Assembly: GCF_040436345.1 (NCBI RefSeq)
Contig: NC_133233.1
Coordinates: 10,063,381 to 10,127,380, forward strand
Direction of reading: 5' to 3'
Length of the DNA: 64,000 bases
Source: Pagrus major
Lineage: Eukaryota; Chordata; Actinopteri; Spariformes; Sparidae
Shown piece after piece: positions 2,694 through 17,300 of the stretch (position 1 is the stretch's first letter; each line of letters starts with the position of its first letter). The position numbers and the translations under genes are program-made. Under the pieces are notes generated by a model. That model did no database searches. It had not been told where the DNA came from and worked only from the letters and a program-made list of their open reading frames with translations.

Positions 2694-2825
2694 TCAGTTG
2701 GTCCCTGAGGGGTTTGGTGCAGGATTGGTAGAGTTGGGTGGAATCAGCTTCATGGTATTGAAAAAGTCCACCAGCTGAGCTGGTACTTCTGCCAACACGC
2801 TCTTGGCCAGTGCTTCTCGAGGACC
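2694..2825 (-). CDS. cpne3: Copine A terminal exon 15b (distal alternative C-terminus)
   Basis: The exon has 44 codons including TGA, again in phase 0, so it can replace 15a without a frame change. It encodes [20 protein letters not shown] and then [11 protein letters not shown], which resembles the canonical CPNE3 tail at least as well as 15a does. The acceptor is read as CACAG before GGTCCT. The open frame and the coding similarity to 15a and to copine B 15b argue for a real exon rather than a relic. Confidence 0.8.
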
Positions 2826-5800
2826 CTGTGGTGCAAAAAAAGGAGTTCAAAAATTGTGCAAAATGGTGAGAAGAATAACATCTACATTATTTTTAAATGA
2901 TTGGTTATGTGATCAATATCACTACTGATTAATTAAATGAAGGAAGCATTAAGAGAAGCAGAGGTCATGAAGATGAAGACAGTCAAAAAGGAAAATTCCA
3001 AATAACAAATTACAACAGCAACAACAGTTGTAAAGCCCACTGAGGCAATGTGATTGTGATTTCGTTTTTTTTGTCTAGCTTCAAACTTCAAAAGGATCCA
3101 CCTTGAAAATAAGCTTAAAATTCAAGTGGTCACGACAGATTATTGACCAATGGTTGGCTGTAGCATTCATCAGAACAATAAATGAACCTGCTCAAACAGC
3201 TTTAATAACCAGTTAGCCTTCTGAATCTGTGCTTACTGTGGCATGCAGCATTTTGTTTACAAACCAGCCATGCACACTATGTTCTGATAATGTGATAAGT
3301 CTAGAAAGAAGGCTGATGACTCATGCGGGACACCGAAAATGTACTGCATATGTTTAAAATATATGAAAATATCTGTAATTTTAGCTTTGCTGAAAATACC
3401 ATGACATCATGTTGTCTACATTTGGCTAAATAGCTATTAGCATTTGTAAAATACATGACATGAAATGAGCCGAGAACTGACAATCATTTCACAAATTATT
3501 ATTATTATATTATTATTATCATTATTAATTTTGAGTGGAATTTTCCCTTTAATATAAACAAAAATATGTTTGTGATTGGTCCCCAGTGCTTCAGATCCTG
3601 AGACAGAAAGTACAACAGAATTTGTTGTACTGTCTCTCTTGCCACTGAGGGAGCATCTTCAGTAAAACAGTTTGAGAAGTTGGAATGAGTTAAAATGAAT
3701 GAGGATAGCAAAAACTACATGCAGTGAAGCAGTGAGGTTATTCTTAAAAGAGGCCAAGCAAAGGCTAGGATGGAGATAGGGTTTATGACTGAAATGTTAG
3801 GGGTACCCCTATGAAGGAGTGGGATCATTGGGAGGCTTCAGTTTGAATAAACTGAAGAAGGAGGCCACTTGCTGAGGTAACTCGGCCAATACGCTTTGGG
3901 CAAGAGCCTGGCTGGGCGCCTGAAAAAATAAACAAACAAGGCACAAGAAAGCTAAGTGAGATTTGGGAAGCCCTGGGTTTGGGCATGTGTACTGGCATTG
4001 GATGGGGACCACTGCTATGCTGTGTTTGAATTTTTACTTATAAAGCCAGTTAAAATGAAAATGACCCAGTGAATATTTTGAAAAAAGCTTGAAATGCATG
4101 CAGTTTATATAGCAATGAGTAATTTTTTTTGTGAAAAATCAGCAGAAAACAAAGAATAAAAACACCTAGCTTGTATAAAGCAATATAAAAAGGCGTCTGT
4201 GACTTACATTCTGAAACTGCCTGAATGGCACAAACTGCACAATGTCACGCATGGCGGACTCGCCAGTCTGAGAGCGCAGACGTCCATCGTCTCCATCCAG
4301 GAACTCCATAGCAGCAAAGTCTGCATTCCCTACTCCAACAATGATGATGGACATGGGCAGACGGGAGGCGTTGACGATGGCACTGCGCGTCTCGTCCATG
4401 TCTGTGATCACTCCGTCAGTGATGATGAGCAGAACAAAGTATTGCTTTGGAAAGACAGCAGAGATAGCAGATCAATGATCAAATTGCTGAAGTGTTTGAC
4501 CCAAATGTTTCTTAAATTGTAGTCTGACATGATCAAGGTGTACTTGAGTGCTATCAGCTACAGTGCAAGATTTCAAATCAAATCCTAATGTATTTGTTAG
4601 TTTTCCTCCTCCAATTCATTTACATTTCTTTATAATTGACTCCTGCCAGAGCTTTGTTCACCTGCAATAAGAACAATGAGAAGGCACAACACCAGGCTGT
4701 GTATTATTGTGTTTATTTCCTTCAACACAGGCTTAACCACTTTTAAGAGATTAAATAGAGCTTAAAACCAAAGGAGAGTTCCAGATTTATCAAGCTATTA
4801 AGCAATCCGACTGCAGTGTAGCTCCTCGTGGGCATACAAATGTAACAAATTTAGCCCTTTATTAATCCCACTTGGGGAAACTTAATTCACTCAGTTCTGA
4901 GTTGTTTCATTAGCCACAAATGGGCCTGAAATGCACAGTCCCGTGCCTGTTCACCTCCTGTCACCTTGGCAATAAACAGGAAGGGAATTGTTACCTCTCC
5001 AACTACAGGTCCCAGCATGGCCCTCTGGTTCCCACAATAAATCCCTATGGGCTGAGCTACTGCTGCACCAAATGACAAAAATCCAATAAAGATGAGCCTG
5101 GCATCTGAAAATAGCTTTAACAAACAATTACTGTGGTATAATCAAACCCTGCTGTTATCAAATCATCCTGCTCCACTGTGCAATTATGCATAAAGAGAAT
5201 AAGGAAATAGTACTGACAGACTTTCTTTCCCATCCAGCCCGATGTAGCACAACCAAATGTTTACTTCAAGTGTAAATACCTTGTGTTACAAGCAGTGGCA
5301 GTGCTAAAACTAGACAAGAGACTAAGACTAAATCTGATGAAAGCTAATGAACTATGAACTGTCTTTCTTTGTAATAAACTGATGGTTGGAGAACTACTTG
5401 ATGTGTTAAATGGAGAGTTTCTCTGCATGCAGGGCTGTGAGTCTGGCTGTGAGAGTCTACAGTTATATTACCGGTGATTACCGGTCTGGCTGAACAGAAA
5501 TACTACTTACTGATGCAGTGGTCTGCTGGAGGGCTTGCTTAGCAAAGCAGGCAACGTGGTTGATGATTGGGGAGAAGTTGGTTGGACCGTAGAGTTTGAC
5601 CTGGGGCAGACAAATTCTGTAGGCTTCCACCACACCTTCAATGCCTATGCACACACACAGACACACACACATTAAATAATCTGTTTCAGCCAGTCTGATA
5701 ATTTGTCTAATTTCATCTACGGTGCAATGACTTGTAAACAAACCTGTACAAAATGGATTTGCTGGGTTGAAATTGAGAGGAAACTCGTGGGAAACCTGTT

Positions 5801-14399: not shown

Positions 14400-17300
14400 C
14401 TGAAGAGAAGAAGTAGAGACAAGGGACCAAGTTGAGAGTGACAAATATATATACACACGATTTAGAAGGAGACAGCAGGGGAACTAACTGTCGCAACCAA
14501 ATAAGTGAAGCAGGGGGTTAGAGACATGAGCCATAGGTTAGTATCACAAGCATTTACTGATTATTTAATCATGATTAGTATATCAATGTGCCCATACATC
14601 TGTTTTATCTGAGCAGCACACTGCTGACACAGAATTAGGAACTTGCAAGCATCTATAGTTGCACATTTTTGTGCAAACAGAGTGATGTTACAACATAGAC
14701 ATTGGCAACACTCTTCTATTTCACATCTAATCATATTGTCTAAAAACGTGCCCAAGGATGCTCACTACCGATGTTCCTATGGTTATTGTCCTAAGTTTTG
14801 AAAAAGGTTTTTAATTAAAGTAAAATATGTCGTTTTAAAAAAGCAGCTTTTGATCAAATGTGTGGATGAAGGAGGGGAATAAGGTCAGGCTCGGGTTACT
14901 CCTACATTTCTAGGAAGGGTTGGGTTCGCTGGGGGGCTTCAGGTGAAATAAATTGAAGAAGGAGGCCACTTGGTCAGGCAACTCTGCCAATACACTTTGG
15001 GCGAGGGCTGCAGTGCCAGCCTGAAATAAGATATTCACACATTCAAATGCGTGCATTATTTAAGAATTATGAAGAAGCTTCGGGTAAGTGCTTTTAAAAG
15101 ACTTTGTTTTATGACATAGCTTACATTTTGGAACTGCCTGAATGGCACAAACTGCACAATGTCCCGCATGGCGGCCTCGCCTGTAGCAGAGCGTAAGATT
15201 CCATCATCTCCATCCAGGAACTCCATGGCACTGAAGTCGGCCCCACCTACTCCAACGATGATGATGGACATGGGCAGACGAGAGGCATTGACGATGGCGC
15301 TGCGGGTCTCATCCATGTCTGTGATCACTCCGTCAGTGATGATGAGCAGAACAAAGTATTGCTGTGAAACGGTGACATAAAAGGGAACGACATGAGAACC
15401 AGAAAGAAAAAAGTGGAAGTGATTTTCACTTCACCATCACCTGAAGAGAGAAGAATTCATTGAGATCCAGTTGTCCCTGTTTGGTGGCGTCTTTCATACC
15501 AAAACTACAATAGCAAACATTTGCACACAAAAGCTACGATTAACCTGCGTTGATTAACTTGAGAGTAAACTCACAGAGGCAGTTTGCTGCTGCATGGCTT
15601 GCCTGCCAAACTGGGCAACGTGGTTGATGATCGGGGAAAAGTTTGTGGGGCCATAAAGCTTCACCTGGGGCAGACACTGCTGGTAGGCTTGGACCACACC
15701 CTCAATACCTAAAAACCACACACACACACACACACACACATTAGGATGGAGCAGAACTAGGTCATATTGAGTGTAATTTTATAGATATTTCAATGCAGTT
15801 CAGCAAGATTGGAAATCGACAACACACTGCAATATGATGATCAAAATCAAGTGTCATGTTTGAGTTTGTGGTTCTGCGATTTCCTGTTTTATTTTGACAT
15901 TCTGCCCTCATGTGTCGTGTTTTGCTTTTCACTTCCTCCTTTTGTGCGATTTCAGCCCCTTTTCTGTGTTCACCTGTGTCTTGTTAGTCAGTCAGCCCTT
16001 GTGTATTTAGTCTCCGTGTTCCCTGCTGTCTTTGTCAGTTCGTCTGTTTTGTTGCCGTGGCTTCCTGTTTCTGTTTTTTGTTCCTGGCTTCATTATTGGT
16101 TAGAAATTTGCTTTTGGTTGTACTTTGTTTAAGCTTTTGTGTTTCTAATTTGTATTATGGTATTTTTGTACTTGTTTTTTTGGATTCTATGATTTTTTGG
16201 ATTTTGTATTGTATGGTTTTTGAGTTTGGCTTGGTTATTAAAAGCTTCCTTTTTGTTCCTAATCCTGCCTTCCTCTTGAGTGTCTTGCAATTGGGTCCAC
16301 ACTGTTTTACAACACGTCACACCAAGAACATGTTGAAACATACATGTTAGAGCAATGATTTATTTCTTCAATTTATTTTGTTGTATTCATGTTCTGTCTC
16401 ATTAAACAAACAGCAATGTGAATTCACAGTAGCTTCGGTGTATAAATACCTGCACAGAACGGATTTGATGGGTTGAAGTTGATGGGAAACTCGTGGCACA
16501 CCTGCAAATACAAATAACTCTTCATCTGGATCCCATACCAACTTATCTGAGACAGATACAGTTGAAATGTCCAATACAGGCTTCTTGGATCAAATATGAG
16601 CTTTTTTTTATGTATTATAGAATTTAATGCTCACAAATACCAAAGTATGTTTTAACTAACAGAAACAATCACCTGCATTGTTGGAGGGATCTGGGCTCCA
16701 AATCCAAAAGCAGGGAACATCTTGTCACTATGGGAAGGAAATGATACAAAATAATTGTTCAAGGAAGTTGAGGACTAGACAGAAGCCCTTTTCAGACATG
16801 GAAAACATAACACTGCTTCATCTGTTATAAAGTGATGGCATTTAGTCATTCAAACATAAGTAACTTTTTCTCTCAGACATGGCAGGACATTTACAGAGAG
16901 AGCTGTGTGGTCTCTATACTCACCCCTGCTTCTCAGAAAGAATCAACAGATACATTTTCAGCATTGATTTCACAATAATGTTACAAGAGAGAAAATTCTG
17001 CCATCTTTTCTATAGTATCCACCAGTACACGAGCACTGAACGCCAGGATGTCGAGTTTACAGTCCTATTAGCTCATATTCTACATAAAGCTTTTCAAAGG
17101 ACATTCATGTGTTGGAATGAACAGAGAGTACTGGTCTGAGAATTACTGTGGTTGTCCAAGACTTTTATCCCTTCTTTTTCTGGTCCTGACTCAGAATGAG
17201 CTGAAAATAATTTATCAAACTAATCTGGTCTGATTGAAATTGGCTCTTTGACAGTGTTTCCTCGGTTCACAACTGATTTTGTGTTTGAGTGATGATAACT

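Follow-up and report, generated by a model that had tools for sequence, protein, structure and literature searches.

Two homologous terminal coding exons lie side by side at the ends of two neighbouring copine genes of the fish Pagrus major, and here we propose that each gene can use either of them to end its protein. The genes, which we call A and B, lie with a third copine gene, C, on the minus strand of a 64,000-nucleotide stretch of contig NC_133233.1 (positions 10,063,381 to 10,127,380), referred to below as the window. In both A and B, exon 14 is followed by a proximal terminal exon, 15a, and a distal one, 15b. Our reading, to which we assign a probability of roughly 0.7, is that A and B inherited a tandemly duplicated terminal exon and that exon 14 joins either copy, giving two whole-copine isoforms. 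The strongest single argument that both copies are maintained by selection is that the introns of A and B have mostly diverged past detection by blastn, whereas both terminal exons have not.

Paired terminal exons in copines A and B

All three copine genes are predicted to be intact. Their models were built from open-frame protein matches among the three regions together with splice sites, and are thus predictions from homology (Table 1). Each gene has 14 predicted coding exons upstream of its terminal exon or exons, with GT-AG introns; exons 1-14 add up to 1488 nucleotides (nt) in A, 1515 nt in B and 1506 nt in C, without an internal stop. The predicted proteins are 532 (with 15a) or 539 (with 15b) residues long for A, 541 or 554 for B and 541 for C. 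In a Pfam scan all five possible proteins matched the Copine (vWA-type) domain PF07002 (E 1.4e-92 to 2.3e-88), over positions 1 to 217 of the 218-position profile (1 to 215 for A with 15b), and all five carried two stretches matching the C2 domain PF00168 (E 7.2e-33 to 4.3e-28). Judged from these sequences, A, B and C are members of the copine family. Exons 9-15a of A aligned with the plant copine BONZAI 1 (PDB 6kxk; E 7.8e-70) up to query residue 246 of 260, and exon 14 of A joined to 15b aligned with it at E 8.1e-28. The two terminal exons would exchange the final part of the Copine domain, a segment that in alignments with solved structures falls at the end of BONZAI 1.

At the end of exon 14 in A and B, the residues FRQFQN are followed by a GTAAGT or GTAAGC donor. 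The four terminal exons of A and B were confirmed at the positions given in the preliminary description of this DNA: each has an AG in front, begins in phase 0 and finishes with a stop codon of its own. In A, 288 nt of intron precede 15a and 983 nt separate it from 15b; in B the corresponding lengths are 104 nt and 510 nt. Exons 15a and 15b encode the same type of tail, LAxSVLAExPxQxxxFF followed by KLxPP or HLKPP, and a six-frame scan of the 64 kb for LA.SVLAE.P.Q...FF returned the five terminal exons of the three genes only. The shared kind of tail had been noted before, with either LAQSVLAEL or LAKSVLAEV as its core; to these must be added a third variant, LAQSVLAEV, in 15b of B. Chance resemblance among the terminal exons was considered and rejected, since 15b of A and 15b of B match each other with E 5e-12 in DNA (blastn) and 1.9e-12 by tblastn. 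Adjacent, homologous, in the same phase, of similar length and each with its own stop, the terminal exons of A and B have the anatomy of the tandem duplicated type.

Age of the exon pair

Comparison of region A with region B by blastn gave 15 matches, all of them on exons and together covering all 16 exons. One of these spans exons 9-10 including the short intron between them, and none lies on an intron alone. Identity is 81.8 % over 99 nt for 15a and 75.3 % over 93 nt for 15b, and the first 43 codons of the two 15b copies align without a gap. The gene bodies of A and B differ by a synonymous divergence (dS) of 0.89. At 0.84 (15a) and 0.77 (15b), the two terminal exons come close to this value, as expected if the exons split together with the genes. 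A reading of the terminal exons as fossils is disfavoured by this ungapped, exon-following similarity at a dS of about 0.8.

A tree of the five terminal exons was examined over the 31 codons that align ungapped across all of them, by submitting all 15 unrooted topologies to the approximately unbiased (AU) test. With DNA, all three topologies that contain a clade of the two 15b exons were kept, and the 12 others were rejected (p<0.01). A separate origin of the pair inside A and inside B is among the rejected alternatives: the five topologies that group 15a with 15b of A, or 15a with 15b of B, all fail on DNA (AU p<0.01), and four of the five fail on amino acids. The best amino-acid tree is the same as the best DNA tree. 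On the strength of the dS values and the DNA test, the exon pair is very probably older than the split of A and B. That order of events had been proposed earlier, and the five-exon tree supports it, clearly on DNA and more weakly on protein.

One body exon stands out in the same comparison. Exon 5 (A 9585-9665, B 20481-20561, both on the minus strand) is 93.8 % identical between A and B at the nucleotide level, the highest of 13 body exons of equal length, and the runner-up reaches 87.8 %. Gene conversion or strong constraint is a possible cause of this high identity.

Signs of selection on 15a and 15b

Both exons of the A and B pairs look as if they were maintained by selection, as far as can be judged from one pair of paralogues in one genome. 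Within the first 31 codons, a limit we set where the five exons align ungapped, the ratio of nonsynonymous to synonymous divergence (dN/dS) between A and B is 0.20 for 15a, with an excess of synonymous differences at P 0.006, and 0.29 for 15b, at P 0.017; these values rest on rounded counts and on several tests that were left uncorrected. A neutral simulation of 31 codons was run 20,000 times with an assumed 0.1 indels per substitution; both lineages came through with an open frame and no gap in only 3 runs for 15a and 1 for 15b. The preliminary description had made its proposal depend on purifying selection on 15b across species; signs of such selection were seen between the two paralogues of this one genome.

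Proposed mechanism and alternatives

Under our proposal, the ancestor of copines A and B would have carried a tandem duplicate of its terminal coding exon. Joining the exon 14 donor to the acceptor of 15a would yield a 36-residue tail, and joining it to the acceptor of 15b a tail of 43 residues in A or 49 in B. Either tail would complete the Copine (vWA-type) domain, and the proteins would differ in the last stretch of the domain and in the free end beyond it. Both terminal exons would be spliced in vivo, and competition between their acceptors would settle the choice, whether or not the transcript is cleaved early, behind 15a. The tail swap would then alter the binding of partners by the vWA domain. 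Changed partner binding seems to us the likeliest effect, because copine vWA domains bind partners: that of Copine-4 binds HCFC1, Morn2 and Mycbp2 (PMC8631636), and in Copine-6 this domain seems to be both required and enough for an increase of TRPM3 currents (PMC12317139).

To compare the acceptors we scored them with a matrix derived from 39 other acceptors of the copine genes, a crude measure. Exon 15a of A scores 14.0 bits (above 37 of the 39) and its 15b 6.8 bits (above 11), while in B the order is reversed, with 6.1 bits for 15a (above 10) and 11.7 bits for 15b (above 31). From this reversal the crude score predicts opposite defaults, A favouring 15a and B favouring 15b. The same scores lend themselves to another reading, in which each gene ends mainly through a single terminal exon, for instance 15a in A and 15b in B, and the other survives as a seldom used relic of the duplication, with no regulated choice between them. 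The opposite scores would fit a division of labour after the duplication, and a comparison of two genes cannot tell which lineage bore the constraint, which leaves room for a relic in one of them. Yet the weaker acceptors still outscore 10 or 11 of the 39, and the acceptor of the terminal exon of C (C15), for which no competitor was found, scores lower than all four. Moreover, the four exons are open, the cores shared by A and B are ungapped, and there are signs of purifying selection. We therefore regard the relic reading as unlikely.

The exchanged segment would presumably form the final helix of the vWA fold in copines. In integrin I domains the last helix moves, setting the open or closed state. 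A more specific proposal would be that the choice of terminal exon swaps this last vWA helix and so tunes ligand binding by an intracellular vWA domain, A and B having taken opposite defaults after the gene duplication; taken as a whole, it is quite unlikely.

How transcripts ending in 15a would be terminated bears on a further alternative. A consensus scan of 984 nt in A and 511 nt in B found no AATAAA between 15a and 15b; ATTAAA, a possible weak signal, occurs twice in each interval, and rarer variants of the poly(A) hexamer are present there too. With no canonical signal but with these variants, 15a transcripts may either stop early at a weak signal or run on to the same distal end as 15b transcripts. 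If a shared distal poly(A) site were the rule, the 15a form would keep the interval and 15b as 3′ untranslated region (UTR), so that the choice would mainly alter the 3′ UTR (stability, microRNA sites) and the change of protein would be secondary. The position of the first AATAAA, which follows 15b in both genes (1385 in A, 13267 in B), is in keeping with that view. However, ATTAAA is at hand in both intervals (3553 and 3206 in A, 14815 and 14569 in B) besides the rarer variants, and the absence of AATAAA is not unusual, since by a rough estimate about 0.9 occurrences would be expected in A and 0.5 in B. The signs of coding constraint on both exons further imply that the protein end matters, and we consider it very improbable that the effect lies chiefly in the 3′ UTR. 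Finally, although tandem copine copies exist here, three in a row, it is barely credible that 15b is the leftover end of another tandem copy whose other exons were deleted (an account of origin that is compatible with present use): in neither gene did frame-by-frame and blastn comparison reveal a convincing trace of exons 1-14 in the interval from 15a to 15b, and such a leftover would have to arise before the split of A and B and be kept in both.

Against the exon-choice proposal itself stand several results. With amino acids (31 positions), seven of the 15 topologies of the terminal exons remain at AU p>0.05, four of them without the clade of 15b exons. The tests for synonymous excess draw on 22-25 differences, on a chosen cut and on rounded counts, with no correction for multiple tests. 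With the full alignment of 43 codons, 15b has a dN of 0.41 and a dS of 0.77 (dN/dS about 0.53), and the 12 codons after codon 31 give a dN/dS of 2.0 (P 0.88), no sign of constraint. Dropping the indel condition from the neutral simulation lets 26 % of runs for 15b and 15 % for 15a stay open in both lineages. The acceptor score is a poor guide, as C15, the sole terminal exon of C, reaches just 1.2 bits (above 4 of the 39), and of the region's 1909 AGs, 6.4 % match or exceed the score of 15b of A and 7.9 % that of 15a of B. Among seven splicing-motif patterns scanned, only common PTB- and CELF-type words were found in both A and B.

In the 983 nt downstream of 15a in A there are three copies of TGCATG, an RBFOX-type motif (3242-3247, 3269-3274 and 3718-3723, all on the minus strand), and one further copy lies upstream of that exon. 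We do not rely on this cluster as a switch for 15a: 112 of 5000 dinucleotide shuffles also reach three copies, B has none, and seven patterns were scanned.

Copy C and the order of events

For C, a tblastn search of the whole window with the peptides of the five terminal exons (E<0.1) found no further terminal exon, such as a hidden 15b. The preliminary description had taken the exon of C to be of the 15a type and C to have probably lost 15b. The first of these claims stands in part. By identity C15 is nearer to 15a (24-25 of 36 residues) than to 15b (20-21 of 36), but of the eight positions that tell 15a and 15b apart, only four (3, 14, 16 and 19) carry a 15a residue in C15, one (position 1) carries the 15b residue and three (4, 24 and 25) carry neither. 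The leucine of LAELP, common to 15a and C15, is present in BONZAI 1 too; it may thus be ancestral, and would then be uninformative on the descent of C15. At the DNA level C15 pairs with 15a of A and has no match to 15b of A, and 15b of B matches C15 over 54 nt. The blastn comparison of A with C gave 15 matches, 14 of them exonic and one on the minus strand outside exons.

The second claim, a loss of 15b in C, is not supported over a duplication after C diverged. The unrooted tree ((A15a,B15a),C15,(A15b,B15b)), in which each exon is named with its gene, is equally compatible with loss of 15b in C and with duplication after C had diverged. When BONZAI 1 was used as outgroup, all seven tested rootings of the exon tree were kept, the root on C being the best. 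All three topologies of the gene bodies with this outgroup were kept as well; the best of them groups B with C, 0.6 log units above A with B. Body dS is larger to C (A-C 1.26, B-C 1.33) than between A and B, which suggests that C diverged first, although these values are near saturation.

Other features of the window

The feature coordinates of the copine genes and the candidate poly(A) signals are collected in Table 1.

Table 1. Coordinates of predicted copine features and of hexamers resembling poly(A) signals, all on the minus strand
Feature	Position	Strand	Basis
Copine gene A, coding span (exons 1-14, 15a, 15b)	2694..11540	-	predicted model
A exon 14, ends FRQFQN, phase 0	4208..4444	-	gene model
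A exon 15a, proximal terminal, 36 codons + stop, 111 nt	3809..3919	-	gene model
ATTAAA, possible weak poly(A) signal between A 15a and 15b	3548..3553	-	consensus match only
Second ATTAAA between A 15a and 15b	3206	-	consensus match only
A exon 15b, distal terminal, 43 codons + stop, 132 nt	2694..2825	-	gene model
AATAAA, first canonical poly(A) signal after A 15b (variant hexamers earlier)	1380..1385	-	consensus match only
Copine gene B, coding span (exons 1-14, 15a, 15b)	14250..22130	-	predicted model
B exon 14, ends FRQFQN, phase 0	15125..15361	-	gene model
B exon 15a, proximal terminal, 36 codons + stop, 111 nt	14910..15020	-	gene model
ATTAAA, possible weak poly(A) signal between B 15a and 15b	14810..14815	-	consensus match only
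Second ATTAAA between B 15a and 15b	14569	-	consensus match only
B exon 15b, distal terminal, 49 codons + stop, 150 nt	14250..14399	-	gene model
AATAAA, first canonical poly(A) signal after B 15b (variant hexamers earlier)	13262..13267	-	consensus match only
Copine gene C, coding span (exons 1-15), one terminal exon	24558..31551	-	predicted model
C exon 14, one codon shorter than in A and B, ends FRDFQ then GTAAGC	25022..25255	-	gene model
C exon 15, sole terminal exon found for C	24558..24677	-	gene model

Beyond gene C lies an RMDN1-like gene (about 33484-38927, plus strand) that was read by eye; a piece of it scores 21.4 bits against PF21033 (RMD1-3), below the cut-off of 26.7. Further on, a stretch with four WW domains (about 49542-54581, minus strand) is probably WWP1. 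In the human genome CPNE3 presumably adjoins RMDN1 and WWP1, and by position A, B and C may be orthologues of it. In or near the WWP1-like gene there are pieces of Tc1/mariner-type transposases, at 47211-47966 and 47827-48270 (both minus strand), with DDE_3 and a Sleeping Beauty-type helix-turn-helix in overlapping frames, and a fragment at 60731-61012 (plus strand) that matches DDE_3 below the cut-off. At the other edge of the window, positions 1-183 (plus strand) hold the end of a gene that is convergent with copine A. The last residues of this 60-residue piece resemble, as we take it, isopentenyl-diphosphate isomerase; in the Pfam scan its only match was below the cut-off and to another family.

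Relatives of the system were also sought outside the window. Pattern searches gave 15 matches in viral contigs, none of which was confirmed by tblastn, and 68 in genome contigs, again with none confirmed, as expected for an animal gene.

Relation to known systems

Exchange of homologous C-terminal exons is an established kind of splicing event, of which the copine pair proposed here would be a new member. A survey of tandem duplicated exon substitution in human lists 236 events, 77 of which swap homologous C-terminal regions (PMC9741552). Copines A and B resemble these in having homologous tandem coding exons that can each supply a C-terminus; the human events are annotated in GENCODE, whereas the copine pair is predicted here from gene models. 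The words CPNE and copine are absent from the main text of that survey and from the main text of PMC5740500. A study of homologous 3′-terminal exons with multiple poly(A) sites cites human capping protein beta as a case (PMC3228551). As in those systems, the last coding exons of copines A and B are homologous, similar in length, in the same phase and provided with their own stops; unlike them, as far as that source describes them, A and B have no AATAAA between the proximal exon and 15b.

Alternative splicing of copines themselves has been described in other forms. Human copine isoforms arise mostly by deletions or alternative N-terminal sequences, and one isoform of Copine 7 has a loop inserted in C2A (review, PMC10968396). 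Isoforms by alternative splicing are thus common to the human genes and to our proposal, and a homologous C-terminal swap is not described in the part of the review consulted. The review also cites shorter 3′ UTR transcripts of CPNE3 in the brains of schizophrenia patients (PMC3502694). At the CPNE1-RBM12 locus of human, mouse and zebrafish, splicing from a shared promoter has been analysed with a focus on the 5′ UTR (PMC2568002); this too is alternative splicing at a copine locus, and alternative C-terminal exons are not mentioned in the part of that study consulted. Among the matches listed from open-licence papers in PubMed Central, none describes paired copine terminal exons, in agreement with the preliminary description, whose author knew of none. 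Both exons may well be listed as isoforms in automatically annotated fish genomes.

How the copine vWA domain chooses its partners is poorly understood. A natural pair of endings, in which only the last vWA stretch and the tail are changed, would be a ready tool to map which part binds what. The copine pair would, in addition, illustrate how paired exons can persist through a gene duplication, in a situation where gene copies and splice forms could have replaced each other.

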